From a virus: a stretch of 58,578 bases of DNA. Location of the stretch: positions 1 to 58,578 of IMG/VR virus record IMGVR_UViG_3300008107_000057; one strand, given 5' to 3'. Each line of letters opens with the position of its first letter. Position 1 is the stretch's first letter. Both the position numbers and the translations under genes were made by a program. Of this stretch, positions 2,161 through 54,055 are shown piece by piece. Under the pieces are notes generated by a model that ran no database searches, was not told where the DNA came from, and saw only the letters and a list, made by a program, of their open reading frames with translations.

Positions 2161-2183
2161 TACAAATTGGCTAAATACAAGAT

Positions 2184-2429
2184 ATGAAATTATTAGAGTT
2201 TTTCTACTTTAACGACAAGAGCAACAACTATACTATCGATCGTCGCTACGAGTCGAGTAATGACGTGTCTATTTTAGATCAAGAAGATACCCGTAAGATT
2301 AGACTTACATTCAAGCAAATTAATATGTTGCGTATGCAAAGCGAAGCACACGAAGCAGAGCAAGAATCCGAACTTGGTTTTATTAGACAGATGTATGGCC
2401 AGCCACCCGCAGAACAACAACCCCAATAA
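2184..2429 (+). CDS. Small conserved-looking phage protein after portal
   Basis: 81-residue protein with an aromatic N-terminus (MKLLEFFYFND), a polar middle and a Glu/Gln-rich helical C-terminus ending in a PPAEQQPQ tail. No enzymatic motif is seen. It sits 24 nt after the portal stop in the position where T4 has small prohead-core genes, so a head-assembly role is plausible but unproven. No Shine-Dalgarno is visible; instead GCTAAATA (2170-2177) ends 6 nt before the ATG. Its last 35 bases overlap the next gene when that gene is started at 2395. Confidence 0.6.
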   Translation: MKLLEFFYFNDKSNNYTIDRRYESSNDVSILDQEDTRKIRLTFKQINMLRMQSEAHEAEQESELGFIRQMYGQPPAEQQPQ

Positions 2430-3021
2430 ACCCGCATTTGTACTAGGAAACGGCATCAGCAGACTTGTAGTTGATATCGCCGAATTGCAGCCGCACGGCA
2501 CAATTTTTGCCTGCAATGCTGTGTACAGAGAAGCAGAAGTCGATCATTTAGTAGCAGTAGATGTTAAGATGGTCAATGAAATTATTGCTGCTGGATATCA
2601 TAATACCAATAATGTTTGGACAAATCCAAACAAGGGCGTTCTAGAAACTTCAAATATTAACTTCTTTGACCCACATAAAGGCTGGAGCAGTGGGCCTACA
2701 GCACTATGGCTTGCAGCATCAATGGGACATAAAGACATCTATATTCTAGGATTTGACTTTGAAGGAGTTCAAGGCAAGTTTAATAACGTCTACGCAGATA
2801 CCTTTAATTACAAGAAAAGCTATGAGCCTCCTACATTCTTTGGTAATTGGGTATCTCAAACTGAAAAGATAGTTAGAGATTTTCAAGATGTAAAGTTCCA
2901 CAGACTGGTCGGAAAAAAGTTTATGACCCCCCCTGCATTTAGTTCTGGACTAAATAATTACAAGAACATTTCATATAACGAGTTATCAGAAAGATTTGCA
3001 ATAAATCTTAAAAAAGCCTGA
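2395..3021 (+). CDS. GT42/DUF115-like Rossmann protein in head operon (putative glycosyltransferase)
   Basis: About 208 residues from ATG 2395. A longer TTG start at 2374 would lie deeper inside the preceding gene and adds no conserved sequence. Residues 13-23 (PAFVLGNGISR) resemble the nucleotide-binding start of CST-I type sialyltransferases (GT42) and MptE-like DUF115 proteins. Residues 98-123 (SSGPTALWLAASMGHKDIY, then GFDFE) resemble the second conserved block of that fold, where CST-I has TSG...AIALGYKEIYLSGIDF. The GT42 catalytic His region is not clear, so activity is uncertain. It could modify a virion protein, be a remnant enzyme, or be structural. It lies between portal and prohead-core genes. 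Confidence 0.6.
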   Translation: MASHPQNNNPNKPAFVLGNGISRLVVDIAELQPHGTIFACNAVYREAEVDHLVAVDVKMVNEIIAAGYHNTNNVWTNPNKGVLETSNINFFDPHKGWSSGPTALWLAASMGHKDIYILGFDFEGVQGKFNNVYADTFNYKKSYEPPTFFGNWVSQTEKIVRDFQDVKFHRLVGKKFMTPPAFSSGLNNYKNISYNELSERFAINLKKA

Positions 3022-3110
3022 AAACGATCAAAAAACTACTATATAACACCGAATTGTAATAATAGTAGTAAATAACTCGACAGCCAAATTAATACCCTAA
3101 GGAGACCAAC

Positions 3111-3959
3111 ATGGCGGATAAAACCACTATTGAGCAAATGCTCGAGCACCTAGTTAATGGTGAACAAGATAAAGCGGAAGAACTATTCCACGAATACGTT
3201 GTTGCGCAGTCACGCGAAATTTACGAAGGACTAATTGAGTCCGAAATGAGCGATGAAGAAGAAGAAGAAGCAAAAAAGAAACAACAAGAAGCAGTTGAAG
3301 AAGACTTCGAAGTAGCCGAAGGCGACGACGATGAAGAAGGCGACGATGGCGAAGAGTCAGATTCAACAGATAACCTATTAGGTAATCTAGCAGGTGAAGA
3401 AGATAGCGAAGATGAAGAAGGCATGGACGAGCCAGCAACTAAGCAAGACGTAGTTGACGGGTTTGACGAACTAATGTCTAAGTTTGACGAATTAGCAGCA
3501 GGTCTAGGCGGCGATCACGAAGAGCCAGACATGGATAACATGGGCGGACCAAGCGACATGGACGCTGACAACACGGGCATGGGCATGAAAGATGCATTCG
3601 AACCACAAATGGCTACTGTACGTGAATACGTAGAGAAAGTTGGTGCGGGCCATGGTGCTGAGAAGAAAGGCTCTGCTGAACAAGGTGGCGGCAATACAAA
3701 ATCAACTATCGACAACATGAAAAATGATATGGGCGGTACTGTTGCTAACACTGCTAGAGGCGGTGAAGGCAACGACAAAGGCACAGCAGGTGGTCTAGCT
3801 GGTAACAAAGCTAAAGAAGACAATGCTGGCAATATTAATGTTCCAGGCGGTAAAGCAGGTAATGCTTTCAATACAAAACAGCCAGGACACGGCGCTGAAA
3901 AGAAAGGCGCAGGCGAACAAGGTGGAGCGAACACTACAAGTTTGTTCCGCAATAAGTAA
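3111..3959 (+). CDS. 67: Acidic prohead core protein (gp67-like) with extended repeat tail
   Basis: 282 residues. The N-terminal 50 residues (TIEQMLEHLVNGEQDKAEEL, then LFHEY...YEGLIESEMSDEEEEE) parallel T4 gp67: a short amphipathic helix, a second helix, then a long Asp/Glu run. The acidic block spans about residues 46-120. The C-terminal third is Gly/Asn/Lys-rich and holds two copies of a GHGAEKKGxxEQGGxNT repeat (about 179-197 and 261-279). T4 gp67 is only about 80 residues, so the tail is an extension. gp67 is an essential scaffold-core component that gp21 degrades. There is a clear SD (AAGGAG) and a weak late motif, AGTAAATA, at 3067-3074. Confidence 0.7.
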   Translation: MADKTTIEQMLEHLVNGEQDKAEELFHEYVVAQSREIYEGLIESEMSDEEEEEAKKKQQEAVEEDFEVAEGDDDEEGDDGEESDSTDNLLGNLAGEEDSEDEEGMDEPATKQDVVDGFDELMSKFDELAAGLGGDHEEPDMDNMGGPSDMDADNTGMGMKDAFEPQMATVREYVEKVGAGHGAEKKGSAEQGGGNTKSTIDNMKNDMGGTVANTARGGEGNDKGTAGGLAGNKAKEDNAGNINVPGGKAGNAFNTKQPGHGAEKKGAGEQGGANTTSLFRNK

Positions 3960-3972
3960 TCGGAGCCTTTAG

Positions 3973-4605
3973 GTGAAAAATTTCCTTAGTGAGCATCTGA
4001 GTTTTGACCAAGCTGGGCTGGTCCTTGAATCCTCTGACATAGATGGGAAGAAGACTCTGCATTTGAACGGTATCTGCATTCAAGGGGATATCCGTAACGC
4101 AAATCAGAGAATTTACCCTGTCTCCGAAATAGGTAGGGCTGTCAAAACCGTCAATGAACAGATTGCAGGTGGTTACTCAGTACTAGGAGAAGTTGATCAT
4201 CCTGCGGATCTACGCATTAATTTGGATCGAGTCAGCCACATGCTAACAAAGATGTGGATGGATGGTCCAAATGGTTATGGAAAATTAAAGATTCTACCAA
4301 CTCCTATGGGACAACTTATTTCAACCATGTTGGAGAGTGGAGTCAAACTTGGCGTATCAAGCAGAGGTTCCGGTAATGTTTCCGATGATGGTAGTGGAAA
4401 GGTGAGCGAATTTGAAATTATCACAGTTGATATCGTAGCTCAACCTTCCGCCCCGGGAGCTTACCCAACACCAGTTTATGAACACATTATGAATCAAACA
4501 GGCGGATATAACGCATTTAAAATAGCACAGGAAGTACAAGGCGATCCAAAGGCACAGAAATACATAGCAGAAAGTCTCAAGAAAATCATCTTGGGACTCA
4601 AATAA
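3973..4605 (+). CDS. 21: Prohead core protease (gp21-like)
   Basis: 210-residue maturation protease that cuts scaffold, internal and capsid proteins at (L/I)xE sites before DNA packaging. It starts at GTG 3973 with GGAG 7 nt upstream. The catalytic His is predicted at H76 in LGEVDHPAD and the catalytic Ser at S129/S130 in LGVSSRGSG, the order and spacing of T4 gp21 (His85, Ser140). The downstream EFEIITVDIVAQPSAPGA block is also typical. The N-terminus contains FLSE, a possible self-cleavage site. It lies between gp67-like and scaffold genes, as in T4. Confidence 0.93.
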   Translation: MKNFLSEHLSFDQAGLVLESSDIDGKKTLHLNGICIQGDIRNANQRIYPVSEIGRAVKTVNEQIAGGYSVLGEVDHPADLRINLDRVSHMLTKMWMDGPNGYGKLKILPTPMGQLISTMLESGVKLGVSSRGSGNVSDDGSGKVSEFEIITVDIVAQPSAPGAYPTPVYEHIMNQTGGYNAFKIAQEVQGDPKAQKYIAESLKKIILGLK

Positions 4606-6947: not shown

Positions 6948-6961
6948 GACTTAAATATCCC

Positions 6962-7231
6962 ATGAAGGTTGAAACAGAACACGACTTTAAAGAATTAAGG
7001 AAACACCTAGATAGTTGGCGTAAAAAATTTCCTATGTTCAAACACGATGTGTATCAAATAGAACACATTGTAGAAAAGCATATTCAAAACTATAGCATTA
7101 TAATGGTGCAATACAGACAGACTAAAAGTCGAGCATGTATTGAAAAAGCGCAGCACGAGATAGATGAAATTAATCGAGTTTTAGAGCTTGTGGGTAAAAT
7201 GGAACTCATGGCATTACTTTCCCAAAGATAA
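6962..7231 (+). CDS. Small helical protein, unknown function
   Basis: 89 residues, rich in Lys, Glu, His and Gln, predicted almost wholly alpha-helical or coiled coil. No catalytic motif or transmembrane segment is visible. It is monocistronic-looking between the capsid terminator and the fibre block. There is no SD; CTTAAATA (6950-6957) ends 4 nt before the ATG, one of the suspected leaderless starts. The reverse-strand gene at 32080-32340 is similar in size and style, but I cannot show homology by eye. Confidence 0.65.
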   Translation: MKVETEHDFKELRKHLDSWRKKFPMFKHDVYQIEHIVEKHIQNYSIIMVQYRQTKSRACIEKAQHEIDEINRVLELVGKMELMALLSQR

Positions 7232-13264: not shown

Positions 13265-13636
13265 ATGAGTCAAACCAATTACGTCGGAGCTCCGGACCTT
13301 AGCTCATTATTGGGCGAAGGCAATATTAGATATTTCTACGCATTAAGACGAGACGACGAAGGCTTTGTATATCTTACAAAAGTTGATCAGGTACTCGGCG
13401 ATGATGTTGTTCAAGTTAACAAAGCTGGTGACGCAGCCGACGACTTTGATAACTTTGAATTTGGAATTGACTTTTTTGATGGTATTTTGGACGACAAAAG
13501 TCGCCCATTTGCAAACTTGACATTTGATCAATATAAATGGGACGAACGAAACATCTATTATTATATCAATGACGAAGGCGAACTAGTAGCTAGGATCAAC
13601 AAGAAGTATGAGTATCCAGCAGATCAGATAGTGTAA
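13265..13636 (+). CDS. Acidic virion protein, unknown
   Basis: 123 residues, rich in Asp and aromatics (DNFEFGIDFFDGILDDK), beginning MSQTNYVGAPDLSSLLGEGN. It starts 1 nt after its neighbour's stop, so it is probably translated by coupling. The many Asp and Tyr residues without catalytic motifs fit a small structural protein of T4-like marine phages. It precedes the CBM-array fibre gene and may attach it. Confidence 0.62.
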   Translation: MSQTNYVGAPDLSSLLGEGNIRYFYALRRDDEGFVYLTKVDQVLGDDVVQVNKAGDAADDFDNFEFGIDFFDGILDDKSRPFANLTFDQYKWDERNIYYYINDEGELVARINKKYEYPADQIV

Positions 13637-13642
13637 TAAATA
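13635..13642 (+). promoter_or_regulatory. T4-type late promoter AATAAATA
   Basis: Exact NATAAATA match overlapping the preceding stop, 35 nt before ATG 13678. AAGGA lies in the leader as SD. Confidence 0.65.
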
Positions 13643-13677
13643 TAAGAATAGAGAAATAATTATAAGGAATAGCAACT

Positions 13678-16600
13678 ATGGCAGAGTTTAAATTAGGTAG
13701 ATTGCGCTTTGTTTGGAAAAACATTTGGGCGATTTCTACCGCATACGTTAAAGATGACGTTATTAGATATGGTGGTAAAGTTTATGTTTGTTCGATAAGT
13801 CATACATCGAGCGCAACCGCTAATGGTGGATTTTATACTGACCTAACAGCCGCAAAATGGCAGTTAATGACCGACGGTATTCAATGGGCACAGGCGTGGA
13901 ATGTTAGCACATACTACAAAGTAGCTGACGTTGTTCGCTGGGGTGGACGTTCATATATTTGTAATACAGGTCACGTGTCAAACGCATCTGCTACCAGCGA
14001 AGCAGGCGGTCTAGAAGCCGATATTGCAAAATGGGATCTGTTAAACGATGGTATTGCATTTGCCGGAAGTTGGTCTAGTGCTGTACGTTACAAATTAAAT
14101 GATGTTGTCAGCTACGGTGGACAACTTTATATCTGCCAATTATTTCACTTATCTATTGGTTCTTTTGAACCTGCTAACTGGACATTATTTGCATCTGGTC
14201 TTCAATTTGAAGGTGCCTACAGCGGCGCAACTGCATATCAACCAGGTGACGTGGTAACCTACGGTTCAAACTCTTACGTTGCTATTCAAACCACAACTGG
14301 TAATTTACCAACTGACACAAACAATTGGACTGCTATTACCAGCGGTGTACAATTCCGTGGTGCATACGCAGGTGGTACTGCTTATAGAAAAGGCGACATC
14401 GTTAGCTTTGGTGGTTACAGCTACGTAGCTAAACAAGACTCAACCGGTAATGCTCCAAGTAATGCAACATTCTGGGATGTATTAAACGGCGGTATCAAAT
14501 ACAGCGCCACAGCATATGCTGGTGGAACAACCTACAACATCGGTGATGCAATTACCTATGGTGGGTATACTTACCTTGCCAAGCAGACAACAACTGGCAA
14601 CAGCCCAACTAATGCAACATACTGGGACGTTCTTAATAAAGGCTATACCTTTATTGGAACATATAATTCAGCAAACACATACAAGCCAGGCGAATTAGTA
14701 GCCTACGGTGGCAATTACTACGCTGCTAAAACTGATGTACTTGCTACACAAACTCCAGCTAATGCCACATACTGGGATACATTTAGTGTTGGATTCAAAT
14801 ATGAAGGTGTGTGGGCTTCACGCACAGCACCTAACAGCTATAAGAAAGGCGATGTTGTTAAACATGGTGGTCACTTATACCTCAACGTATTAGAGTCAAA
14901 CACAGAACTTCCAACCAATGCAACATACTTTTCAAAGCTAGTTGATGGATTTTCTTTTGTTGGAGCATATGCTAATGCAACAGCATACAAACCAGGTGAA
15001 GTTGTAAGATACGGTGGTCGTTCATATCTATGTATTCTAGCACATACTTCAAACACAGCCACAAATATTGAACCACCAAATGCCACATATTGGGAACTAT
15101 TAGTTGCCGGTATGAAATGGCAAGGTACATGGAGTATCTCTACAGAGTATGAAATTGATGATGTTGTATCCTTTGCATCTAGCTCATGGATTTCTGTTGT
15201 CAGCGACAACGTTGGTAATCAACCAGATTCAAGTCCAGGTAGCTGGGACTTAGTTGCACAAACAGGTGACCTAGGTCCAGTATTAACTACCACAGGCGAT
15301 ACATATTTTAGAAACTCAAGCGGTGCAGTTGCAAGATTACCAATTGGCACTAATGGTCAACAATTAGTTGTTTCCGCAGCAGGTATTCCCGGCTACGAAA
15401 ATAATAATCAAACAGCTAACGTATTCTATGTTACTCCAGAAGGTAGTAACAGCAACAACGGTCGTACAATGAATCGTGCATTTGCCACGATTAGATATGC
15501 ATGTTCACAGGTTAGTTCGGGTGCAACAATTTATGTTAAGTCCGGAACATACGCAGAATTATTACCGATCGTTGTTCCAGTAAACGTAAGTATTGTTGGC
15601 GACGGTCTTCGTACAACCAGCATCGGTCCAGCAGCAGGTACAAGTGCAGACGGCAGTACATTAAACAATAGAACAACCATGTTCTTGATGAGTGACGGCT
15701 CACAGGTTTCTAGAATAAACGTAACTGGTATGACTGGATTTGTCAAGAGTGTAGGTAGTCCTACTAACATCGAACTTGCCACTAGAGGTGGTGTGTTCTT
15801 TGGATTTAATGACGCTAGCCCAGTTGTTAACAAGAGTCCATACATTCAAGACGTGACAACATTTAGTACCGGTGGTGTGGGCGCACTCATTGACGGTGGC
15901 GTTCATGCTAGTGGTAACAGATCAATGATCTTAAACAACTTTACATGTATCAATGACAATGGAGTTGGAGTTTGGGTAAGACATGCCGGCAAAGCAGAAT
16001 TAGTTTCTTGCTTTACCTACTATTGCGTATTTGGTTTTGCAGCCAGCGATGGCGGACAGATTCGTTCATTGAACGGTAACAACAGTTACGGTACATACGG
16101 ATCATCTAGTCAAGGATTCGACACCGGCGAAACTCCACCAAACGGAACATTATATGGTAGCGATTTAGTTTGGACATTGGGTTCATTAAGTGGCGGTTCG
16201 TTTAGTCCAGGTAATACAATTACAAGTTCGGGTGGCGCAACAGGTACAGTATTGAGTGTGCAAGACAGCACTGAACGAATAATTTATAAACTTGTATCTG
16301 GCACTTTTGTTGCAGGTCAAACTATTAGCAATGGTTCAGGAGTTACTGCAACGATTGCTACCAGCGGTGTAACTGGACAGAAAGGGTTTGTATTAGCAGT
16401 CAGTGGATTCGTAGCTGAACCAATTCCGGGCGGCAGCGTTTCAATTACTGGAGATTCAACTCCATATATTATTCAAGCAGTAAGTGAATATACATCCGGT
16501 CCAGCTGGATTTAAACCAGCAGGCTTTGCATTATTGGTATTAACTACTGAAAAACTAACAGCCAGTGCTGACGGTACAGCAACTATTATTAGATACAGAT

Positions 16601-35566: not shown

Positions 35567-35571
35567 ACAGT

Positions 35572-37333: not shown

Positions 37334-37338
37334 GCAAA

Positions 37339-37397: not shown

Positions 37398-37405
37398 AAT
37401 AAATA
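37398..37405 (+). promoter_or_regulatory. Late promoter AATAAATA for tail sheath
   Basis: Exact NATAAATA match 34 nt before ATG 37440, with a GGGAG SD in the leader (about 37424-37428). Confidence 0.7.
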
Positions 37406-37439
37406 TATTGAGTATATTAATACCGGGAGATTTATCAAG

Positions 37440-40400
37440 ATGGCAACATTAAATTCACCAGGCGCAGAAGTAACCGTTATCGACGAGAGCTTCTATACGC
37501 CAGCAGAGCCAGGGACAGTACCACTGATCGTAGTGGCTACAGGCCAGAATAAGAAAAACGGTGCAGGCACAGGAACAGCGGCTGCAACGACAAAGGCTAA
37601 TGCAGGAAAAGCATTTAAAATTACAAGTCAACGAGATTTAGTTGACAACTACGGCGTACCGTTATTTGAAAAGACAGTAAGCGGTACACCAGTTCACGGC
37701 TCAGAAAGAAACGAATACGGTCTGCTATCAGCATACAGTTTGCTAGGTGTTTCTAATGCAGCATTTATTGTTCGTGCAGATATTAATCTAGACGAACTAG
37801 CAGGTACAACAACAGCCCCGGGAGCGAATCCAGATGATGGCGATTGGTGGTTAGACACCAAGAACACTGCTTGGGGTATTTTCGAATGGAACGGCAATGC
37901 CAGTTCTACAACAGGTGGTCAAAAGTTCGCAACAAAGACTCCTATTGTATTAACATCCGACGATGCTACTAAAGTAGAAAACAGCGCAACATACGGCCGC
38001 GCACCTAAGGCCAGTGTTGGTGTTCCAGGAGACTATGCAGTGGTTGCTGAAGCTAATGCAACATACTCAGAAACAACCGAGCCTGTAAGAATGTTCTATA
38101 AGCGCGATGTAACACTACTAGGTGGTGATGCGTGGGTGCTTCTAGGCTCAAACGATTGGACTGCAAGCCATGCAGCAGTTAAAGGTACAGTAACAAGTCC
38201 TACAATTACAGTTGGTCAAACTTTCTTAATCAATGGTGTTACTGTTACTGCTAACGGTACAACAGCAGCAAGTTTAGTTACTGCTATCAATGCATTAAAT
38301 ATCAACGGTGTTAAAGCAGCAAGATTCTTTGACAGAGTGCAGTTGTATACAGACGGCACTAACGATTTAGTTGGTGATTCTTCACTGTCAAATGCGATTG
38401 TTATTGCTAGTGGTGGTGGTAATCCAGGAACAATTTTGACAGCCGTGGGATTTACCGCAGGCACATATTATGGTCCTCAACTACAAATGAGCCCACATAC
38501 TTCTGTTCCAGAGTTTAAGTCTACTGATGCAGCACCTCGTCCAAGCGGCAGCGTATGGATCAAGACAACTGAAGCAAATATTGGTTCTCGTTGGAGATTG
38601 AAGGCATGGTCAACAGCTACAGCATTATGGACAGCCGTTGATGCATCACTATATGCAACACCACACGCAGCTATCTATTATCTAGATAGAACAGGTGGCG
38701 GTGCTAAAATTCCTAAAAATGCTGCATTTGTTCAATACAACTTTGAAGAAGATTTTGGTTACGATTCAACCCCGCAAACCGCAACATTTAGAGTTTGGAA
38801 AAGAAAACAAGTTGGACAAACAAGTATTGCTTCTACTGTAGTAACCGCAAGTACATTTACTGCTGGTCTAAACACATTCACAATACGTGAAATGAAGTTA
38901 GGCACCTTAGCATTAGATTCAGCTAAAACAGTGCAATTTACAGCAGCAGGTACAGCAGCCGATGCTGATAGACTAGCAACAGCAATTAACGCACTAGCAT
39001 TAACTCAAGTTGAAGCCAGTGTTACATCTAACAATGAAATTGTTATTGTTCATAAAACAGGCGGCGACATTAGATTCACTGACGGTACCAACGTACCATT
39101 AAGCAAGGTGTTTAGCGCATTTAATTTGTCAACACTAACTGGTACTGCTAATTTATATGAAATGCCTGCAGGTGATGGCGGAACATTCCTAGCATCTAAT
39201 TGGGTTCCAATGGCAACTGCGGATACCGACTTTAAAGTAAAAGCAAGTGCTCCATTAAACGAAGCAGCAGATGGCCAGTTATGGTTTAATCCAAGCTTTA
39301 GCGATGTTGATATTATGGTTCATAATGGTACAGTATGGAAAGGATACAAATCTGTATTCCCTACTACTGATCCAGCAGGTCCTATTGTTGCAGCATCTAA
39401 GCCAACAACACAAAGCGATGGAACAGCACTAGTAGATAATGACTTATGGATTAGCACAGCAGATCCAGAAAATTATCCAGTGATGTATAGATACAACAAC
39501 AGTGCAAAAGAGTGGACACTGATTGACAAAGCCGACGACCAAGGCGACGAAGGTGTAGTCTTTGGTGATGCACGTTATGGTTCAACTGGCGCAACAGGTA
39601 ACACAGCAGCAAGTATTGTTGATTTGTTAACCAGTGACTTTGTTGACCCAGATAGTCCTGATCCAGCACTTTACCCACGTGGCATTTTATTGTTTAACAC
39701 AAGACGCAGCAGCGGTAACGTTAAGAAATATAGAAACAACTACATCAATGTTAATACAGATAACACTAGATATCTAGGTCAATCAATGGCAGCATACGCA
39801 ACTGATCGTTGGGTAACTGCTAGCGGTAACCAAGAAGACGGTTCCGGTACATTTGGTCGTATTGCACAACGTCAAGTAGTTATTCAAGCATTGAAATCAG
39901 TGGTTGATACAAGCACAGAGATTCGTGACGAAGAGCGCCGTAACTTTAACTTGATTGCTTGCCCAGGTTATCCAGAGTTGTTGAGCAACTTGAATAACTT
40001 AAACTTGAATCGCGGTGTTACATCGTTTGTTGTTGGTGACACTCCATTCCGTTTACCAGCTAATGCAACTGCATTAACTAACTGGGGAACAAATGCCAAT
40101 GGCGCACTAGACAACGGTGACAAAGGTATTGTTACATACGACGAGTATTGTGCAGTGTTTTATCCAAACGGATTTACAACTGACCTAAGTGGTACAAACG
40201 CAGTAGTTCCAGCATCACACATGATGTTGCGTACAATTGCATTAAGCGACCAAGTTAGCTATCCATGGTTTGCACCAGCAGGTACAAGACGTGGTGGTAT
40301 TACTAACGCTACCGCAGTTGGTTATCTAGATGCTTCTACTGGTGAATTCCAAACAGTGGCATTGAACGAAGGCCAACGTGATACATTATATGATATCAAA

Positions 40401-41489: not shown

Positions 41490-41497
41490 GGTAAATA
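41490..41497 (+). promoter_or_regulatory. Late promoter-like GGTAAATA
   Basis: Octamer right after the terminator, ending 5 nt before ATG 41503. No SD. Confidence 0.5.
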
Positions 41498-41502
41498 AAT
41501 GT

Positions 41503-42579
41503 ATGGCAGATAAATTTACAAGATTCCTAACCGGCGTTGTTAACGGCGCAACAAATCCTAAAGGTCAAATGGGCAACTTCCGCCATGCGACTCGCATGTT
41601 TGTGGATAACAACTATGCATTGGCACCAAGAACTAAGTTTATGTTCTACGTGCAATTTGACATTGATAGTCTAGCAGCTGGTGCAACAGTATTCAAAATG
41701 AAACACGCTAGAGAAGTTGGCATACTTTGTAAGTCAGCAGATCTACCAAAATTTACCTTTGATCAAATTACAAAAAATCAGTATAACAGAAAAAAGATTA
41801 TCTATAAGCAGATCAATTACGATCCGATTAATCTAACTTTTCACGACGATAATACTGGTGTTATTAACGCTCTTTGGGCTTTGTACTACGGTGCATATGT
41901 AGTTGATAGACAACTACCCAACGCAGCATACAAGGCTAATCATTATCGACCAGCTGGTCAGATTATGAACAATTATGCCTACGGTCTAGATAATAATGTA
42001 ACAGTTCCGTTTATTAAAAGTATTTCGATTTACACAATGAGTCGTCGTAGATACAACGGATACACTTTAGTTAATCCAAAAATTATTAATTGGAATCACG
42101 GTAGTATGTCGTATGCAGAAGGTGGTACTGCAGAAAGTACCATGCAGGTTGCTTACGAATCTGTACAATATAGTACAGGCAAAGTGTATCAAAACAATCC
42201 TAAAGGATTTGCCAATCAAGCCTACTACGATTTATTGCCAAGTCCATTGAGTGTAGCGGGTGGCGGTACTGTTAGTCTGTTAGGTGAAGGCGGAGTGTTA
42301 GCAGGTGCAGATCAAGTATTCCAAAATTTTGCAGACGGTACTGCATTTGGTAGCATCGGTGGTTTCTTAAATACAGCCATTGCCGCAGTTAACACCGCGC
42401 AGAACATAGCATCACTAACTAAAGAAGGACTTGCATCGGAAGCATTAAATTTGCTTACTAGTGATTCTGGTATTGACGTTGGCAATGTAGTCAGCGGCGT
42501 TCAAGGAGCATTTTTTCCAAAGAATGACGCAGCTCAAGCAGCCACACAAGCATCACAACGAAATCTTACAGGACAATAA
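41503..42579 (+). CDS. Second tail-tube-fold protein (gp54-type tube initiator candidate)
   Basis: 358 residues from ATG 41503; the longer frame would begin inside gp19 and cross a terminator. The segment order resembles gp19: LAPRTKFMFYVQFDIDS, then KSADLPKFTFDQITKNQYNR, then YDPINLTFHDDNTGVINALW, then a late AYESVQYSTGKVY strand. The C-terminal ~120 residues are Gly/Ala-rich and probably helical or flexible. In T4 the gp19 fold is shared by the tube initiator gp54 and gp48, so a baseplate-side tube initiator is the best guess. A second tube variant cannot be excluded. Confidence 0.68.
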   Translation: MADKFTRFLTGVVNGATNPKGQMGNFRHATRMFVDNNYALAPRTKFMFYVQFDIDSLAAGATVFKMKHAREVGILCKSADLPKFTFDQITKNQYNRKKIIYKQINYDPINLTFHDDNTGVINALWALYYGAYVVDRQLPNAAYKANHYRPAGQIMNNYAYGLDNNVTVPFIKSISIYTMSRRRYNGYTLVNPKIINWNHGSMSYAEGGTAESTMQVAYESVQYSTGKVYQNNPKGFANQAYYDLLPSPLSVAGGGTVSLLGEGGVLAGADQVFQNFADGTAFGSIGGFLNTAIAAVNTAQNIASLTKEGLASEALNLLTSDSGIDVGNVVSGVQGAFFPKNDAAQAATQASQRNLTGQ

Positions 42580-42948: not shown

Positions 42949-43388
42949 TGGGACGTTTTGCACAAGGTAAATTCGAAATGAAAAATCCCGAGAAGTATAT
43001 TGGGAAGAAAACACCGTTGGCAAGAAGTAGCTGGGAGTTTGTGTTTATGAGAATGCTCGACGAGCATCCCAGCGTAGAGAAATGGGCCAGCGAAGCAATT
43101 CAAATTCCATATCGTGATCCGCTAACTGGTAAACACACAATATATGTTCCGGACTTCTTTGTTAATTATATTGACAAAGGCGGAAAACGCCACGCAGAAG
43201 TAGTAGAAGTAAAACCAGAAAGTCAAACTCTCCGAGAAAAGACTGGCAAGAGTCAATACAATCAACAACAGTATGTAAAGAATCTAGCTAAATGGGAAGC
43301 AGCCCAAGCATGGTGCAAACAACAAGGTATTAGGTTTAGGGTCGTAAACGAAGGTGATATTTTTCATCAAGGCTCAAAACGTAGATAA
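42948..43388 (+). CDS. 4: Head completion nuclease-fold protein (gp4-like)
   Basis: 146 residues. T4 gp4 (gp50/gp65 class) finishes packaged heads so tails can join. Here FEMKNPEKYIGKKTPLARSS then WEFVFMRMLDEHPSVEKW closely follow the T4 pattern (NPxKYxGK...RSSWExxxMRxLDxHPxVxxW). PD-(D/E)xK nuclease elements are P68-D69 (YVPDFF) and E87-V-K89 (VVEVKP), with downstream QYVKNLAKWEAAQAWCKQQG. The catalytic pattern is intact, so DNA-end trimming activity is plausible. Confidence 0.9.
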   Translation: MGRFAQGKFEMKNPEKYIGKKTPLARSSWEFVFMRMLDEHPSVEKWASEAIQIPYRDPLTGKHTIYVPDFFVNYIDKGGKRHAEVVEVKPESQTLREKTGKSQYNQQQYVKNLAKWEAAQAWCKQQGIRFRVVNEGDIFHQGSKRR

Positions 43389-43395
43389 GTACTGT

Positions 43396-43869
43396 ATGAC
43401 AAAAAAATTGGAAGAACTCTTTAATTTAGCTGATACAGATCCGGAAACGGATGTGGCTCTTCCGGTTGAGCATCAAGAAGTTATGGACATAGAACGCAGT
43501 TATAAAGAAGCAGAAGCAATTGCTGCTACTTTGCCAACTATCACAGAACTAAACAATCTTGACGAACAAGAATTAGATGCGCTTTCTAAAAAAGCAGAAA
43601 CAGCATATGACGATTTAATGGATTTAGGCATGAATGTAGAAGTGCGATATGCCAGTCGAATTTTTGAAGTTGCTAGTAGTATGTTAGGTCATGCAATTAC
43701 TGCTAAATCTAACAAAGTCGAAAAGAAGCTAAAAGCCATTGATATACAACTAAAAAAATACAAAATCGATAAAGATAACAATGAAGACCCAAATAATGTC
43801 CTAAACGGGCAGGGCTACATTATTACAGATCGCAACGAATTGATCAAAAAACTCGGTGGAAAGGAATAA
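43396..43869 (+). CDS. 16: Terminase small subunit (gp16-like)
   Basis: 157 residues from ATG 43396; the longer frame from 43354 would overlap gp4 by 35 nt. It regulates gp17 and recognises DNA for packaging. The acidic N-terminus (LEELFNLADTDPETD) leads to a central coiled-coil pair (YASRIFEVASSMLGHAITAK then SNKVEKKLKAIDIQLKKYKI) and a C-terminal tail, the T4 gp16 layout. Head-completion gene upstream and gp17 three genes downstream support the call. GATAAGTA lies 4 nt before the ATG and there is no SD. Confidence 0.85.
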   Translation: MTKKLEELFNLADTDPETDVALPVEHQEVMDIERSYKEAEAIAATLPTITELNNLDEQELDALSKKAETAYDDLMDLGMNVEVRYASRIFEVASSMLGHAITAKSNKVEKKLKAIDIQLKKYKIDKDNNEDPNNVLNGQGYIITDRNELIKKLGGKE

Positions 43870-43872
43870 ATA
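43865..43872 (+). promoter_or_regulatory. Late promoter AATAAATA
   Basis: Exact NATAAATA match overlapping the gp16 stop and ending 5 nt before ATG 43878; no SD. Predicted leaderless start. Confidence 0.55.
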
Positions 43873-43877
43873 TTACT

Positions 43878-44447
43878 ATGAAAACTTTTAAAGAATACCT
43901 ATCTGAAAGCAAAAAAGTTTGGTCTTTTAGGATCAAAGTTGCTGGCGAATTGCCAGAGGGCTTTCAAGCAACTGTCAAAGACAGACTACAAAAATTTGGT
44001 GTAACTCGTTTCGAAAAATCATCTCAATCTCCAATTCAAAAAACTGCACTTGATTTTCCGCAGTTAGAGAATGTTGAAGTTGCAGTGTTTGAAATAGAAA
44101 CTGCTTATCCAACTACACCACCAGAATTACTAAATGTAATTAAGACATGTAATCTAATCAAAGAAGAATATATTCTTGTTAGATATACATCCGAAGAAAT
44201 GGATATCATCGATGATGCAAAAGCAGATTCGTTGTTGGCCGATTCAACATATAGTGAAGTTGCTAAAATCAAACACAAAGATTATTTTGGTGACGAATTT
44301 AATACAGCATTTCTAAAAGACTTAGAAAAGACTGCTAAACAACGCAGAAAAGATTTGGGACATGACAGTAAAAAAGTAGATGTTCTAGCAACAGCTCCCA
44401 AAGTAAAAACTGATAAAACTGGCTCTAAGAGTCCTATGGGGAGTTAA
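43878..44447 (+). CDS. Predicted internal head protein with capsid-targeting sequence
   Basis: 189 residues. The N-terminus MKTFKEYLSESKK matches the T4 capsid-targeting sequence (MKTYQEFIxE of internal proteins IPI-III), including a gp21-type cleavage site after LSE (residue 10). After cleavage the protein would start SKKVWSFRIKVAGELPEGFQ. Residues 13-110 look like a mixed alpha/beta domain; the C-terminus is Lys-rich (EKTAKQRRKDLGHDSKKVDV), as is common for DNA-contacting internal proteins. It sits between the two terminase subunits' genes. The targeting motif is seen in the sequence; packaging into the head is inferred. Confidence 0.72.
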   Translation: MKTFKEYLSESKKVWSFRIKVAGELPEGFQATVKDRLQKFGVTRFEKSSQSPIQKTALDFPQLENVEVAVFEIETAYPTTPPELLNVIKTCNLIKEEYILVRYTSEEMDIIDDAKADSLLADSTYSEVAKIKHKDYFGDEFNTAFLKDLEKTAKQRRKDLGHDSKKVDVLATAPKVKTDKTGSKSPMGS

Positions 44448-45279: not shown

Positions 45280-46866
45280 ATGAGTAAAAGTCTCGACGGG
45301 GTCTTAATCAAAAAGGCCCATGCACCACAACGGTATACGCTTGAAGAAGTAAGACATCTCGAAGCTTGTATGGATCCTGTTACAGGACCGTTGTATTTCT
45401 GCAAAACTTTTTTAAAGATTCAGCACCCAGTACGTGGATCGATTCCATTTGTACCCTACGAATACCAAGAGCGATTAATTAATTCCTACCATACTCATAA
45501 GCAGTCGATTGGTATGTTACCGCGTCAGATGGGTAAAACTACGTGTGCAACTGGTTACCTATTATGGTACACGATGTTTGTTCCAGAAGCGCAGGTTCTG
45601 ATAGCGGCCCACAAATACGAAGGCGCACAGGATATTATGAATCGATATCGATTCGGCTACGAGAACTTGCCAGACTTTATTCGTGCAGGTGTTTATTCTT
45701 ATAATCGTAATACAATCGAATACGATAATGGCGCACGTATTCAAGCAACTACTACAACAGAAAACACAGGTCGTGGTAAATCTCTTTCATTAATTTACTG
45801 CGATGAGTTCGCATTCGTTCAACCTCCAGAGAAAGCCAAAGAGTTTTGGACTGCGTTATCACCAACCCTATCAACGGGTGGTAAATGTATTATTACATCA
45901 ACACCCAACAGTGACGAGGATCAGTTTGCTCTTATCTGGACTGAAGCTAACAAGAAGTTTGATGAGTTTGGTAACGAACAAGAGTTAGGTTCAAACGGAT
46001 TTTACAGTTTCTTTGCACATTGGAGCGAGCATCCAGATCGTGACGAAGCATGGGCAGCAGTTGAACGTAGTAAAATTGGTGCAGAGCGTTTCCGCAGAGA
46101 GTTTGATTGTGAATTTTTGATCTTTGACGAAACATTAATCAACGCAGTACGTCTTGCAGAAATGAAAGGTGTTGAGCCCACAATGACTATGGGACAAACA
46201 CGCTGGTATAAAGATATTAACCCGCAGGCAACATATTTGATTGCACTTGATCCTAGCCTAGGAACAGGCGGTGACTACGGTGCTATTCAAGTCTACGAAA
46301 TGCCAAGCATGGTTCAAGTTGCAGAATGGCATCATAACTTAACTCCTATTCAAAAGCAAGTTAGACACATGCGTGAAATTTGCAAATACATTTCTGATCG
46401 CGGCGAGGAATTAGGCGGCGTTCCGCAGATATATTATTCGGTCGAAAATAACACAATCGGCGAAGCAGCATTAATGGTAATCAGTGATATTGGTGAAGAA
46501 AACTTTCCTGGATTGTTCCTAAGCGAACCGATACGCAAGGGTCATGTACGTAAGTTCCGCAAGGGATTTAACACAACACATAAGACCAAAATCACTGCTT
46601 GTAGCCAATTAAAGAATCTAATCGAAACACAAAAAATGACTATTAAGTCAAAACCCTTGATGTCAGAACTAAAAACCTTTGTTGCACACGGTGTAGGATA
46701 TGGTGCAAAATCTGGAGAACACGACGATTTAGTATCTTCTACTTTACTATGCGTTAGAATGGCTAACGTGCTAGCAGATTGGGATCCTAAAATCTACGAT
46801 AAAATGACGGAAAAACTCAACGAGGATCAGTTGCCTATGCCAATCTTCATTAGCACAGGCTATTAA
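45280..46866 (+). CDS. 17: Terminase large subunit (gp17-like)
   Basis: 528-residue packaging motor. The ATPase domain has Walker A PRQMGKTT (81-88), Walker B LSLIYCDEFA (168-177) with catalytic Glu in DE, and motif III CIITSTPNSDED (about 203-214). The RNase-H-like nuclease domain starts with IALDPSLGTGGDYGAIQV (metal-binding D324). It continues with a central Glu (VENNTIGEAAL) and a third acidic residue in the GEHDDLVSSTLL segment. All expected motifs are intact. Length is below T4 gp17 (610). The SD is AAGGA. Confidence 0.96.
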   Translation: MSKSLDGVLIKKAHAPQRYTLEEVRHLEACMDPVTGPLYFCKTFLKIQHPVRGSIPFVPYEYQERLINSYHTHKQSIGMLPRQMGKTTCATGYLLWYTMFVPEAQVLIAAHKYEGAQDIMNRYRFGYENLPDFIRAGVYSYNRNTIEYDNGARIQATTTTENTGRGKSLSLIYCDEFAFVQPPEKAKEFWTALSPTLSTGGKCIITSTPNSDEDQFALIWTEANKKFDEFGNEQELGSNGFYSFFAHWSEHPDRDEAWAAVERSKIGAERFRREFDCEFLIFDETLINAVRLAEMKGVEPTMTMGQTRWYKDINPQATYLIALDPSLGTGGDYGAIQVYEMPSMVQVAEWHHNLTPIQKQVRHMREICKYISDRGEELGGVPQIYYSVENNTIGEAALMVISDIGEENFPGLFLSEPIRKGHVRKFRKGFNTTHKTKITACSQLKNLIETQKMTIKSKPLMSELKTFVAHGVGYGAKSGEHDDLVSSTLLCVRMANVLADWDPKIYDKMTEKLNEDQLPMPIFISTGY

Positions 46867-46877
46867 CTAAATATACT

Positions 46878-49241
46878 ATGGACTCACAAAAAAGCATCGC
46901 TACAGACTTATTTTACAAAATTAGAAGCCGTTTCACAGGACTGAAACTTGGTGAAAGCGCAGGTGCGGTTACTATTAACCCGGAATCTGCTGTGTTTTTT
47001 GATTTTGATTATATCGATGAAGATATTGCTCTTGGGCATGTTAGCATTAGTCTAGCAGAACCTACATCGATGAAAGTATATTTCAGTAATGGTATTACTG
47101 AACAAATGAATATCGTACAAAAAGAAAAATGGTATGGTTTTCTAAGAGAATTGCGCCAGTTTGCAAAACGCAGATTGCTTACCTTTGATACTAGAGATGT
47201 TGCCAAAGACAATCTTGATCAAAGAGACTTTGCTTTTTTGAGTCAGTATAATAAGCCACAGAATATCGGAGAATCAGTTATGAATGGAAACGGTCTATAT
47301 GGATCAAAGACTGTTAGCTATCAAAAGCTAATGGACACACGCTTGATCATCAAGCACGTTAATGCGCTTACAGATGATCAGCAGCCAGGAGCACGAAGCA
47401 GAAATATTGGTGCTTTATTTATTGAGAACCAACACGGTGAACGTTTTAAATATCCGTTCATTCATCTAGCAGGTGCTCGTGCTATGCAACGTCACGTCGC
47501 AAATGGCGGAGTTCCATACGATGACCTTGGCAAAAGTATAGTTGGTATGAGTGAGCAAATTGCTCAATTGAAAGGGTTTGGCAACTATGTTGTTAGAAAC
47601 GATTTACTTAACTCTGATACAAACAGTATCTACGAACGCAGTGCAGATGCACTAAATGGATTACGCGAGCAAATCGCAAAATTATCTAAACAGGCTTACT
47701 ACGAGCAATATAAAGAATCATTCCAGGCTCCGGATAGTTTCGAGATTCCCGAAGACGTTGTAGAAGACTTCACAGAAAAATTCACTGTCAAAAATTTCAA
47801 AGAGGACATTAAGTCCGTATTTCCAATTCTATACAGACTTATGAAGGAAGAGTCCAGATTAGGCTATGACGACATAGTCGCCATGACAGGGCAAGAACAA
47901 GCAGACGAACAAATTGAATCTGCACAAGTTGATCCGTTTGCACAATTTGAAAGTTGGGCAATGACATTAGGTGAAGCAAGTGCTGTTCAAAGTCAAGATC
48001 CACAAGAACGTACACTAGCAATTCAAAAATTAAACGAATTAACATTACAATCATTTCCGGCTGGTGAAAGCGGACTGAATGCTATTACAAGTCTTGAGGG
48101 AATCATCGAAGATAAAGAATTATATGATGCATTTAAGGCAGCAGGCGTAGAGGAATCAAACACAGATGTTCGTCCATTCATTCAAGTATGGTTGCAACAG
48201 AATGCTCCAGACGTATTGTCAGAAGTTGATTTTGGTGATTTAGCAAATGCAGATGCTAGTACACAACAAGAGGGCTCCGGCGACCAACAAATTAAACCCG
48301 GCATGAAAACTCAATACGGAACTGTAGTGTCTGTAGAAGGAAATACAGTAACAGTAGATGCCGGCAATGGTGATTTAACCACGGTTAATATTCACGATAT
48401 AGAGCAAGGCATTGACGAAGCAGCCGAAGGTAAGCCGGCATTTCCAAAAAACACCGACTATGGCTACGATGGCAATAACTGGGATGAGTGGAAGAGCTCC
48501 CCAGGATATGCAGAATATCGTGCTGCTACAGATGCGTGGAGTAAAGCTGACAAAGCATGGCGAGCAAAAGAAGCACGTAAGTATGACACAACAATGTGGA
48601 TCTCAAATCCGCACTTTGACGTAAACGGTCCCGAAGACGAAGAAGATCCTGACTTCCAAGCAGAAGAACTTGAAGTAGGAGTAGATTATTCTAGCGAAAC
48701 AACGGGCGAATATCGTGCAGCAACATGGGGATATCATGGTGGTGAGCCAGAAGAGCATCCAGAAACCGAATACGAAATTACAAAAATTGTTGATATTGAC
48801 ACAGGTAAGGATCTTACCGATGACAGCTCAGTATTTGATCTAGTATATGAAAAACTCGACGATGAACAATACGAATCGATCGATCCTAAGAACAAACAAG
48901 ACTACGAACGTCCGGCAATAGATCGTAAAAAAGCAGGACAGCCGCCTTTGACTATGAAAGACGTTAAGGACAAAGATGAAAAATCCGAACGTGATCGTAA
49001 ATCTCGTGCAGGCGTTAACGTACAAGAAGTAGCAGAATTTATCTACAGTTTTTATGATAAAAAGACCAACACTTTCCCTAAAGGTCCAGAAAGCGTAGCT
49101 ACAATGACCGGAAAGAAGTTTGGTGAACAGGCAGAAGCAATGGCGAGAAAACTAGCAGAAAGACTAGCACCACAGCAAAGTCCACAGGCAGATCCAAGAC
49201 TTGCAGAAATTGCAAGAATTAAACAATTGTCAGGCATGTAA
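46878..49241 (+). CDS. Large protein after terminase, unknown (virion-associated candidate)
   Basis: 787 residues. The N-terminal 100 residues form a mixed domain (SAVFFDFDYIDEDIALGHVS) followed by a Lys/Arg-rich helix (LRELRQFAKRRLLTFDTRDV). The middle (about 130-330) is helical. Residues about 475-510 look like a small KOW/SH3-like barrel (GMKTQYGTVVSVEGNTVTVD then AGNGDL). Acidic and aromatic segments follow (about 520-660). The C-terminus has PQADPRLAEIARIKQLSGM. ACTAAATA ends 4 nt before the ATG. Similar large proteins follow gp17 in some aquatic T4-like phages. Role unknown. Confidence 0.68.
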   Translation: MDSQKSIATDLFYKIRSRFTGLKLGESAGAVTINPESAVFFDFDYIDEDIALGHVSISLAEPTSMKVYFSNGITEQMNIVQKEKWYGFLRELRQFAKRRLLTFDTRDVAKDNLDQRDFAFLSQYNKPQNIGESVMNGNGLYGSKTVSYQKLMDTRLIIKHVNALTDDQQPGARSRNIGALFIENQHGERFKYPFIHLAGARAMQRHVANGGVPYDDLGKSIVGMSEQIAQLKGFGNYVVRNDLLNSDTNSIYERSADALNGLREQIAKLSKQAYYEQYKESFQAPDSFEIPEDVVEDFTEKFTVKNFKEDIKSVFPILYRLMKEESRLGYDDIVAMTGQEQADEQIESAQVDPFAQFESWAMTLGEASAVQSQDPQERTLAIQKLNELTLQSFPAGESGLNAITSLEGIIEDKELYDAFKAAGVEESNTDVRPFIQVWLQQNAPDVLSEVDFGDLANADASTQQEGSGDQQIKPGMKTQYGTVVSVEGNTVTVDAGNGDLTTVNIHDIEQGIDEAAEGKPAFPKNTDYGYDGNNWDEWKSSPGYAEYRAATDAWSKADKAWRAKEARKYDTTMWISNPHFDVNGPEDEEDPDFQAEELEVGVDYSSETTGEYRAATWGYHGGEPEEHPETEYEITKIVDIDTGKDLTDDSSVFDLVYEKLDDEQYESIDPKNKQDYERPAIDRKKAGQPPLTMKDVKDKDEKSERDRKSRAGVNVQEVAEFIYSFYDKKTNTFPKGPESVATMTGKKFGEQAEAMARKLAERLAPQQSPQADPRLAEIARIKQLSGM

Positions 49242-50665: not shown

Positions 50666-50666
50666 T

Positions 50667-52434: not shown

Positions 52435-53263
52435 ATAAATCATCGTGCGGTACCTCACATGGATGGCCCTGGTAATACAGGGTCATCTCTTGAGCACTGC
52501 CATCAAACCATTCGTTGTGATTAAATTGCACCCATGCAACATGTTCGTGCCATGCATGTCGATTAACTGGCTCTGTGGGATCATTCCAATTATCTAGTGT
52601 GTGTTCACAGGCTACCCAAGTTGGACACGGTCCTAGACTAATTACTTTCTTTCCGTACCAAAATGCTTCAGCAGTAATTGCAGAACTGTAACTAACGACT
52701 AGATCGGCCCATTCAAAATCACCGTCGTCACCGAATACTCCTTTAAAGAGTCCGTTACCGTAATGTTGTATACCCTTCTTGCCTATCTTCAATCGAACCT
52801 TTACATTAGCACCCTGTGATTCAAAAAACTCTTTGAGCTGATTAGACCATACCACTGGATCAACTGTTGTAAAGATGCCTTGACTTTTTTTGCTAGGCGC
52901 AATCAATACATTCTTAATCTCCTTTACCTTCCATGGTTGGATGTCCAATCTAGTTGTATTCCATCTTTGGTAAGACGCATTACCAAATCGTGTACATGCA
53001 AATGAGTTAACTGCAACTCTAGCAGCAAATCTTTTTGTTTCTAACCACGACCCTATATAAGGTCGATTAATGGCAATATATGGACGTTTTGCAGCCATCC
53101 ATTCTCCAATAAGTCCCAATGGATTTGCAGGCACAACTAATGGTATTTCTGGGTTCGCTAGTGCTATATCGTCAACTACTATCAATTGATGAGTAAACCG
53201 TTTCCATCCGTTAATGAACTGTTCGTCGAATTCTCTAGATAGTATTTGAAACTGTTTCGTCAT
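52394..53263 (-). CDS. GT-B/capsule-type glycosyltransferase-like protein (paralogue A)
   Basis: 289 residues from ATG 53263. A GTG at 53290 would add nine residues, but AGTAAATA (53276-53269) ends 5 nt before the ATG, supporting the shorter form. The C-terminal half has VLIAPSKKSQGIFTTVDPVV and DLVVSYSSAITAEAFWYGKK then VISLG, the nucleotide-sugar pocket pattern of GT-B folds such as KpsS/KpsC-type capsule enzymes. The same block recurs in the proteins at 54726 and 56193. Likely role: surface glycan modification. Substrate unknown. Confidence 0.65.
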   Translation of the reverse strand: MTKQFQILSREFDEQFINGWKRFTHQLIVVDDIALANPEIPLVVPANPLGLIGEWMAAKRPYIAINRPYIGSWLETKRFAARVAVNSFACTRFGNASYQRWNTTRLDIQPWKVKEIKNVLIAPSKKSQGIFTTVDPVVWSNQLKEFFESQGANVKVRLKIGKKGIQHYGNGLFKGVFGDDGDFEWADLVVSYSSAITAEAFWYGKKVISLGPCPTWVACEHTLDNWNDPTEPVNRHAWHEHVAWVQFNHNEWFDGSAQEMTLYYQGHPCEVPHDDLFKEWRLPIQRPLT

Positions 53264-53268
53264 ATCAG

Positions 53269-53276
53269 TATTTACT
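53269..53276 (-). promoter_or_regulatory. Late promoter-like AGTAAATA
   Basis: Reverse-strand octamer ending 5 nt before ATG 53263; no SD. It helps choose that start. Confidence 0.5.
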
Positions 53277-53289
53277 AGAAAACTGACCA

Positions 53290-53297
53290 CATAAATA
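53290..53297 (+). promoter_or_regulatory. Late promoter CATAAATA
   Basis: Exact NATAAATA match ending 5 nt before ATG 53303, divergent from the reverse promoter at 53269-53276. No SD. It probably drives 53303-57125 as one operon. Confidence 0.65.
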
Positions 53298-53302
53298 ACA
53301 GC

Positions 53303-54055
53303 ATGAAACGTATTGTACTAATCACAGGCGGATTCGATCCCCTACACTCAGGTCACATTGCTTACTTTAAAGCAGCCAAAGAACTCGGTGATATGCTTAT
53401 TGTTGGCGTTAACTCTGACGAATGGCTTCGTCGAAAGAAAGGGCAAGAATTTATGCCCTGGGAAGAACGAGCAACTATAATTGCAGCTCTACAAGACGTT
53501 GATAGAGTTATTAACTTTGACGACAGCGATAATAGTGCTAAAGATGCTATTAGAAAAGTTAGAAAGATTCATCCACAATCTCATATTATCTTTGCCAATG
53601 GTGGAGATCGAACAAAGACAAATATTCCAGAAATGGATGTACTTAAGGAAATGCTTCATGTAGAATTTGTCTTTGGCGTCGGCGGAGAGGACAAAAAGAA
53701 TTCAAGCAGTTGGATCTTACAAGAGTGGAAAGCACCTAAGACTATTCGTCCTTGGGGATATTATAGAGTACTGCATACGGTAGGCGATAATGTTAAAGTC
53801 AAAGAATTAACAGTCGATCCTGGAAAAACTCTAAGTATGCAGAGACATAAACATCGAGCCGAACTTTGGTTTGTTGCTGAAGGCCAAGCTGCATTAAATT
53901 GGGAATATGGCGGTGAAAGAATTGACGTATACAAACAAGAAACTATTAATGTTGGCGAATGGCATCAATTACAGAACCCAACAGATAAACCGCTGCGGGT
54001 TATTGAAATACAATACGGTGAACAATGCGACGAAGAGGACATTGAAAGAAAATGA
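53303..54055 (+). CDS. Nucleotidyltransferase-cupin fusion protein
   Basis: 250 residues, two domains. Residues 1-130 form a cytidylyltransferase-like (RfaE/HldE-C or TagD type) domain: TGGFDPLHSGH with the HxGH motif H15-x-x-H18, NSDEWLRRKKG, and FANGGDRTKTNIPE in the place of the second nucleotide-binding motif. Residues 148-245 are a cupin of mannose-6-phosphate isomerase type II: RPWGYYRVL, metal ligands H182, H184 and E187 in MQRHKHRAELWF, and H221 in VGEWHQLQNP. Predicted to activate a sugar phosphate and to isomerise or bind a related sugar. The stop overlaps the next start (ATGA). Confidence 0.82.
   Translation: MKRIVLITGGFDPLHSGHIAYFKAAKELGDMLIVGVNSDEWLRRKKGQEFMPWEERATIIAALQDVDRVINFDDSDNSAKDAIRKVRKIHPQSHIIFANGGDRTKTNIPEMDVLKEMLHVEFVFGVGGEDKKNSSSWILQEWKAPKTIRPWGYYRVLHTVGDNVKVKELTVDPGKTLSMQRHKHRAELWFVAEGQAALNWEYGGERIDVYKQETINVGEWHQLQNPTDKPLRVIEIQYGEQCDEEDIERK

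Follow-up and report, generated by a model that had tools for sequence, protein, structure and literature searches.

The 58,578-base virus record IMGVR_UViG_3300008107_000057 (hereafter the window, meaning the whole stretch of DNA analyzed) represents part of the genome of an uncultured jumbo phage of the T4 type. In this window, an octamer matching NATAAATA/TATAAATA or a close variant stands at a fixed short distance before the ATG of 12 genes, an arrangement that our analysis confirmed. Its best explanation is very probably that these are late promoters positioned to yield leaderless late mRNAs, whose 5′ ends are here predicted from the DNA. The arrangement is characterized by the motif, its exact spacing, a pyrimidine just before the start codon, the use of ATG only, the lack of a Shine-Dalgarno (SD) sequence, a bimodal distance distribution, conservation across homologues, and restriction to a lineage.

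A sequence-only reading of the window had listed 11 octamers with their spacings, all of which are present in the sequence. A twelfth, absent from that reading, is AATAAGTA, which precedes the reverse-strand ATG at 32722 by 4 nucleotides (nt). The sites, followed by three genes with leaders given for contrast, are as follows.

2170..2186, + strand: GCTAAATA, spacer 6 nt; ATG 2184, 81 amino acids (aa), phrog_13986, function unassigned.
6950..6964, + strand: CTTAAATA, spacer 4 nt; ATG 6962, 89 aa; directly 3′ of a terminator-like hairpin.
32720..32734, − strand: AATAAGTA (octamer 32727-32734), spacer 4 nt; ATG 32722, 133 aa.
35536..35553, − strand: GGTAAATA, spacer 7 nt; ATG 35538, 398-aa virion structural protein, phrog_11591.
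35559..35574, + strand: AATAAATA, spacer 5 nt; ATG 35572, 252 aa, head-tail adaptor Ad2 family phrog_211.
37331..37346, − strand: GTTAAATA, spacer 5 nt; ATG 37333, 110 aa, HNH endonuclease family (gene 37001-37333).
41490..41505, + strand: GGTAAATA, spacer 5 nt; ATG 41503, 358 aa, tail-tube family; directly 3′ of a terminator-like hairpin.
43384..43398, + strand: GATAAGTA (octamer 43384-43391), spacer 4 nt; ATG 43396, 157 aa, phrog_16202.
43865..43880, + strand: AATAAATA, spacer 5 nt; ATG 43878, 189 aa; the octamer overlaps the 3′ end of the preceding gene (last base 43869).
46866..46880, + strand: ACTAAATA, spacer 4 nt; ATG 46878, 787 aa, virion structural family phrog_13484.
53261..53276, − strand: AGTAAATA, spacer 5 nt; ATG 53263, 289 aa, no family found.
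53290..53305, + strand: CATAAATA, spacer 5 nt; ATG 53303, 250 aa, adenylyltransferase-like, phrog_7878.
3067..3113, + strand, with leader: AGTAAATA, 36 nt to ATG 3111, SD present.
37398..37442, + strand, with leader: AATAAATA, 34 nt to the tail sheath ATG 37440, SD present.
13635..13680, + strand, with leader: AATAAATA, 35 nt to ATG 13678, AAGG SD core.

The lack of an SD sequence claimed for the 11 genes of that reading holds for most of them, but 37333(−) and 43878 have AAGG 12 to 13 nt 5′ of the ATG. Genes 3111, 7319, 11422, 37440, and 49418, described as having both octamer and SD, do have both, but the octamer is 34 to 100 nt away (36, 84, 100, 34, and 71 nt, respectively).

The major capsid protein of the window is 67 to 74% identical to those of jumbo T4-like phages, including Phosso, GAP32, 121Q, and PA5oct, the closest cultured phage having 73.7% identity among the matches listed. 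The other protein families recognized were portal, sheath, tail tube, head-tail adaptor Ad2, SSB, and virion structural proteins, and a scan of the window for tRNAs and known RNA elements found none. Close relatives were taken from IMG/VR, each search giving the best 80 of a larger number of matches; removal of near copies from 160 relative loci left 106, covering 1.24 Mb. The clade records, designated by G numbers, are fragments of 15 to 210 kb anchored on capsid or sheath.

Of the 61 TAA[AG]TA motifs in the window, 12 sit 4 to 7 nt 5′ of an ATG that opens a frame of ≥60 aa, whereas 10,000 circular shifts gave 0.87 such sites on average and never more than 6; for TAAATA, the count is 10 of 38. 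Each of 14 other arrangements of the letters of TAAATA gave 0 to 7 sites at 3 to 8 nt, and the top one, AAATAT (7 sites), overlaps TAAATAT. When every hexamer was scanned at 0 to 30 nt before the first two ATGs of open reading frames (ORFs) of at least 100 aa, TAAATA at 5 nt was the sole pair seen at least 4 times in the window (6 observed, 0.03 expected). This pair ranked first in the window, G002, G004, G005, and G006; it ranked second in phage HTVC008M and fifth in G001, beside SD motifs. The 106 relatives contained 1,050 TAAATA motifs, for which an ATG opening 80 aa was found at 4 nt in 39 cases, at 5 nt in 127, at 6 nt in none, and at 7 nt in 14. Among 11 further clade records, 9 had P < 0.01 at 5 nt, the control being the mean over 10 to 59 nt. 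The sequence-only reading had proposed a comparison of these distances with controls, and the outcome is a spike at 4 to 5 nt for TAAATA (8.8% of occurrences) that is absent in 11 scrambled motifs (0.2 to 0.9%).

The distance from the motif to the nearest ATG was bimodal over 12 clade records (unique contexts, with several records partly fetched), and the two modes differed in their SD content. At 4 to 5 nt, 8 of 97 sites had an SD core, and none of the 13 sites at 6 to 7 nt did. The range from 8 to 15 nt was a gap, with only 17 sites (3 with an SD core). Farther away, an SD core was found in 54 of 90 sites at 16 to 23 nt and 33 of 69 at 24 to 31 nt (87 of 159 when pooled), and in 25 of 44 at 32 to 39 nt. 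If transcription starts 6 nt past the octamer, the predicted leaders are of −1 to 2 nt at 110 sites, 3 to 10 nt at 17, and 11 to 26 nt at 162. Overall, an SD core was present in 20 of 285 leaderless-type sites (7% when weighted by family). The two translation classes that had been suggested among late genes are thus real at the sequence level, as judged by SD cores in 8/97 sites at 4 to 5 nt versus 87/159 at 16 to 31 nt.

Several signs point to transcription starting at the AUG itself. The T4 octamer occupies positions −13 to −6 (PMC1524935), and T4 transcripts start 6 nt after it, so that a 5-nt spacer would place +1 on the A of AUG; this start position is carried over from T4 by analogy. At 5-nt sites, the base at −1 was T in 81% and C in 17% of cases (98% pyrimidine; n = 167), or T in 82% and C in 12% (94% pyrimidine) when 34 gene families were weighted equally, versus C or T in 40% of SD-led starts (n = 280). 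The pyrimidine at −1 is an extra feature, not needed by the octamer as such, and together with the A at +1 it agrees with the predicted start of a polymerase dependent on gp55, the late sigma factor, 6 nt past the octamer. The conserved part of the motif is the TAAATA core, preceded by A in 55 to 65% of the 5-nt sites; the first base of the octamer is not conserved, and the family-weighted profile has no strong base preference from −20 to −13. Start codons at 4 to 5 nt were ATG in 124 cases, GTG in 2, TTG in 8, and CTG in 1, the last three being near background. Leaderless translation in Escherichia coli has a stricter requirement for AUG, and the ATG-only pattern fits this rule. In mycobacteria, AUG and GUG are both accepted on leaderless RNA (PMC4633059).

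Among 139 leaderless-type starts, 22 have a terminator-like hairpin no more than 90 nt upstream, versus 4 of 228 SD-led starts, the two groups having slightly different ORF cut-offs and stretches. In the window, 35538(−) and 35572 form a divergent pair with 33 nt between the ATGs, as do 53263(−) and 53303 with 39 nt. We found nine distinct divergent pairs with ATGs 26 to 44 nt apart (2 in the window, 6 in G001, G002, G004, G005, and G006 together, and 1 in HTVC008M), and no such pair in phages Mosig and Melnitz or in nine other T4-like phages.

The leaderless spacing is conserved gene by gene. Allowing spacings of 3 to 8 nt, it was present in 203 of 220 homologues of the 12 genes: 2184 (52/52), 6962 (11/12), 32722(−) (13/16), 35538(−) (13/14), 35572 (13/16), 37333(−) (34/34), 41503 (17/18), 43396 (20/22), 43878 (11/14), 46878 (14/14), and 53303 (5/6), with 53263(−) not conserved (0/2). 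Among SD-led controls, it was found in 0/62 homologues of the major capsid gene, 0/30 of 11422, 0/13 of SSB, and 1/28 of 7319. Among the genes with leaders, SD was present in all homologues of gene 3111 (49/49; leaderless type 0/49) and of the tail sheath gene 37440 (21/21; 0/21), and in 14/19 of those of gene 13678 (0/19). The variant TAAGTA was retained by every leaderless-type member found in the families of 43396 (20/20) and 32722(−) (13/13), which suggests gene-specific promoter strength or timing. The best-conserved leaderless promoter is that of 37333(−), a small HNH endonuclease gene, which is odd for a possibly mobile gene.

Orthologues in other phages have the promoter at a greater distance. 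In Atu_ph07, Phosso, PA5oct, Vibrio 2.275.O, GAP32, and 121Q, the orthologue of 35538(−) has TAAATA 19 to 33 nt upstream together with an SD (6/6 found), and its start position agrees to within one codon in all six. A similar organization of octamer, leader, and SD is seen in the orthologues of 46878 and 35572 in Phosso, of 43878 and 35572 in PA5oct, and of 35572 in Atu_ph07, which implies that the promoter is common to both groups and that the leader is what differs. For the 35572 orthologue of 121Q, neither the octamer nor an SD signal was found.

Some results weigh against leaderless late promoters. In the family of 43878, an SD core is retained by 9 of 14 members, and start calls gave 285 of 632 ORFs neither signal. 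At 4-nt sites, the preference for a pyrimidine at −1 is less marked (57% of 54 sites; 69% across 18 families), and under the T4 rule a 4-nt spacer would place +1 on the U of AUG. Two clade records, G008 (P = 0.06) and G010 (P = 0.15), have no significant 5-nt peak alone. Finally, in 77 of 285 sites, the TAA of TAAATA would close an upstream reading frame of at least 60 codons. This last point is what would be expected if the TAA were the stop codon of an upstream gene and the ATG were reached by reinitiation, the motif not being a promoter. Such translational coupling may help some genes, and at 43878 the last base of the preceding gene (43869) indeed lies inside the octamer. Yet only 11% of the sites fit it when weighted by family, no preceding frame is available for coupling at divergent pairs or after terminators, and coupling would require neither the full TAAATA, nor the pyrimidine at −1, nor a motif 16 to 31 nt before SD-led genes. 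As a general account it is very unlikely.

Slightly less likely again is that the transcripts are leaderless but made by a host sigma-70-type holoenzyme from a −10 box, not by the phage late sigma factor. Many bacteria do make leaderless mRNAs from a −10 box immediately 5′ of the start codon. However, the final T of the −10 consensus TANNNT is missing in TAAATA, structural genes both here and in other T4-like phages are preceded by the same motif at leader distance, and this motif is the one reported for the late genes of phage CBB (PMC5259590).

Start codons in uncultured phages are predictions, and the octamer could be a late promoter placed before an unused ATG, the real start being an SD-led codon downstream. 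This is most improbable. An in-frame SD-led start within 30 codons was found in 6 of 262 such genes versus 10 of 148 in a control stretch. Codons 2 to 16 vary most at their third position in all 11 families with at least 10 members (weakly in one) and are therefore translated. The six leadered orthologues of 35538(−) begin at practically the same residue, with an SD, and all eight such ATGs in the 5500-33000 stretch of HTVC008M match annotated starts. The genomes have 35 to 41% G+C, A-rich starts are common in them, and the first codons of the leaderless class are A-rich, but chance likeness to the octamer in an A+T-rich, unstructured, SD-less initiation region of an mRNA beginning elsewhere has almost no probability in view of the scarcity of scrambled motifs at 4 to 5 nt, and of the 0 sites at 6 nt versus 127 at 5 nt and the gene-specific conservation, neither of which fits an effect of base composition.

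The arrangement is a property of the lineage and is not general in T4-like phages: in a pool of nine others, there was no spike at 4 to 5 nt. A presence in T4-like phages at large was rejected by whole-record counts of TAAATA-N5-ATG versus the reversed pattern: T4, 10 versus 5; 121Q, 6 versus 11; GAP32, 5 versus 8; PA5oct, 15 versus 12; RaK2, 5 versus 17; S-PM2, 5 versus 3; KVP40, 2 versus 2; phiM12, 0 versus 0; Aeh1, 1 versus 2; XaC1, 2 versus 11; Syn9, 3 versus 3; Phosso, 3 versus 2; Vibrio 2.275.O, 3 versus 3; P-SSM4, 4 versus 6; AG-345-E02, 1 versus 2; Atu_ph07, 15 versus 9; ACG-2014e, 3 versus 1; and P-SSM2, 6 versus 6. The small excess of T4 vanishes for ATGs opening 80 aa (2/225 at 5 nt; P = 0.37). 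Outside the clade, exactly 5 nt separated the motif from 12 ATGs in the cultured pelagimyophage HTVC008M (P = 1e−12), 6 in Mosig (P = 3e−4), likewise a cultured pelagimyophage, and 3 in the methylophage Melnitz (P = 0.06). The genes with such sites in HTVC008M include those for head closure, tail tube cap, tape measure, and baseplate wedge. These three phages have smaller genomes, belong to the Kyanoviridae, and represent a separate branch of the T4 superfamily. A capsid tree unites the six spike-less jumbo phages in one starred group, separate from the environmental clade, and places HTVC008M with Mosig in a distant part; the trait label needs four changes, at least two of them forced by starred branches, with labels set by threshold and G003 (P = 0.01) and Melnitz (P = 0.06) scored below it.

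In the mechanism we propose, about a dozen late genes and their counterparts in the clade would have gp55-type late promoters whose octamer ends 4 to 5 (sometimes 6 to 7) nt before the start codon. The polymerase with the phage late sigma factor would begin transcripts at, or no more than about 2 nt away from, the A of the AUG, and their first gene would be read as a leaderless mRNA through recognition of the 5′-terminal AUG. The other late genes (major capsid, sheath, SSB, and 3111) keep their SD, and any late promoter near them is followed by a leader. Lacking a ribosome-binding site, the leaderless genes would be poorly translated from read-through RNA, which would tie their synthesis to their own late promoter. 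We infer the actual 5′ end, leaderless translation, and a regulatory benefit. Of 49 partial clade records, 18 encode the late sigma factor gp55 (phrog_234), as do 9 of 14 in a smaller set; it was not found in the window fragment itself. In the window, two tail-tube-family genes on the + strand are neighbors (40794-41441 and 41503-42579): the first is apparently read from the sheath unit, and the second lies after the terminator with its own leaderless-type promoter. More tentatively, there may be a lineage-wide, two-class program under one late sigma factor, in which conserved late genes became leaderless by deletion of leader and SD, locking synthesis to their own promoter, highly expressed structural genes kept the SD, pelagiphages acquired the trait separately, and a tie to the translation machinery (IF3) perhaps exists.

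The elements of this scheme have precedents. Leaderless phage mRNAs, such as those of P2 gene V, lambda cI, and Thermus phage P23-45, start at the AUG and are translated without SD; they come from promoter types other than the late octamer. T4-type late promoters (gp55/gp33/gp45; TATAAATA at −13 to −6) have the same core motif and a variable first base, and they likewise precede head and tail genes on both strands, under a sigma factor of which the clade encodes a homologue. Unlike in the clade, the nearest ATGs in T4 and eight other T4-like phages peak 24 to 39 nt from the octamer. For the jumbo phages CBB and GAP32, which are related, an ATAAATA promoter motif was reported upstream of structural genes, at 35 locations in CBB, and leaderless genes are unmentioned in the excerpts of that paper available to us (PMC5259590); in the part of GAP32 that was examined (200 of 359 kb), none of 125 TAAATA motifs lies at 4 to 7 nt. 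In T4, genes e, soc, 49, and I-TevI are translated only from RNA starting at the nearby late promoter and not from read-through RNA (PMC3014915). T4 blocks early translation of e, soc, and 49 from read-through RNA by a hairpin over the SD, whereas the clade genes would have no SD and would need no hairpin. Mapped transcripts of Lactococcus cremoris have leaders of <5 nt or about 40 nt, with none of 4 to 14 nt (PMC10986495). This is the same forbidden zone as predicted in the clade, but measured, in a Gram-positive bacterium, and with no late sigma factor. T4-type late promoters and leaderless phage mRNAs are thus each known, but their systematic, gene-specific combination is not described as far as the searched literature shows; among the matches listed, mostly titles, we recognized no description of leaderless T4-type late mRNAs.

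If this explanation is right, a phage sigma factor and its promoter would build leaderless mRNAs, conserved gene by gene. The leadered orthologues of sister phages would then provide a natural before/after comparison of when evolution favors leaderless over SD-led initiation and why leaders of about 3 to 10 nt are avoided. Software for gene calling or promoter scanning will misplace such genes if it relies on the presence of an SD or a leader. In a survey of pelagimyophage genomes, the prediction of late promoters failed (PMC7029224), possibly because these promoters abut the start codons.

Initiation factor IF3 reportedly antagonizes start selection on leaderless mRNAs (Tedin 1999). IF3 was found in none of 15 clade records, including the window, and then in none of 49 partial records. 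It was found in six of eight named records searched (121Q, GAP32, Phosso, Vibrio 2.275.O, RaK2, and Atu_ph07; not PA5oct or HTVC008M), that is, in six of the seven related jumbo phages that were spike-less or only pattern-counted. The absence of IF3 may be linked to the leaderless class, but this is a lead only, given that the contigs are fragmentary and the jumbo side provides a single evolutionary contrast. PA5oct, with neither IF3 nor spike, weakens the link, and the IF3 search left out T4, KVP40, and Syn9. A phage-encoded S1 domain (PF00575) was rejected as a candidate, with 0 of 23 records positive. Ribosomal protein bS21 was considered because HTVC008M encodes it, but it does not track the trait: PF01165 had matches in HTVC008M, PA5oct, Phosso, and Vibrio 2.275.O and in 0 of 14 clade records. 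These four, of 28 records, have the phage bS21 gene at 91237-91392 (HTVC008M), 170985-171143 (PA5oct), 32291-32431 (Vibrio 2.275.O), and 389762-389905 (Phosso). In Vibrio 2.275.O, the bS21 gene adjoins the IF3 gene.

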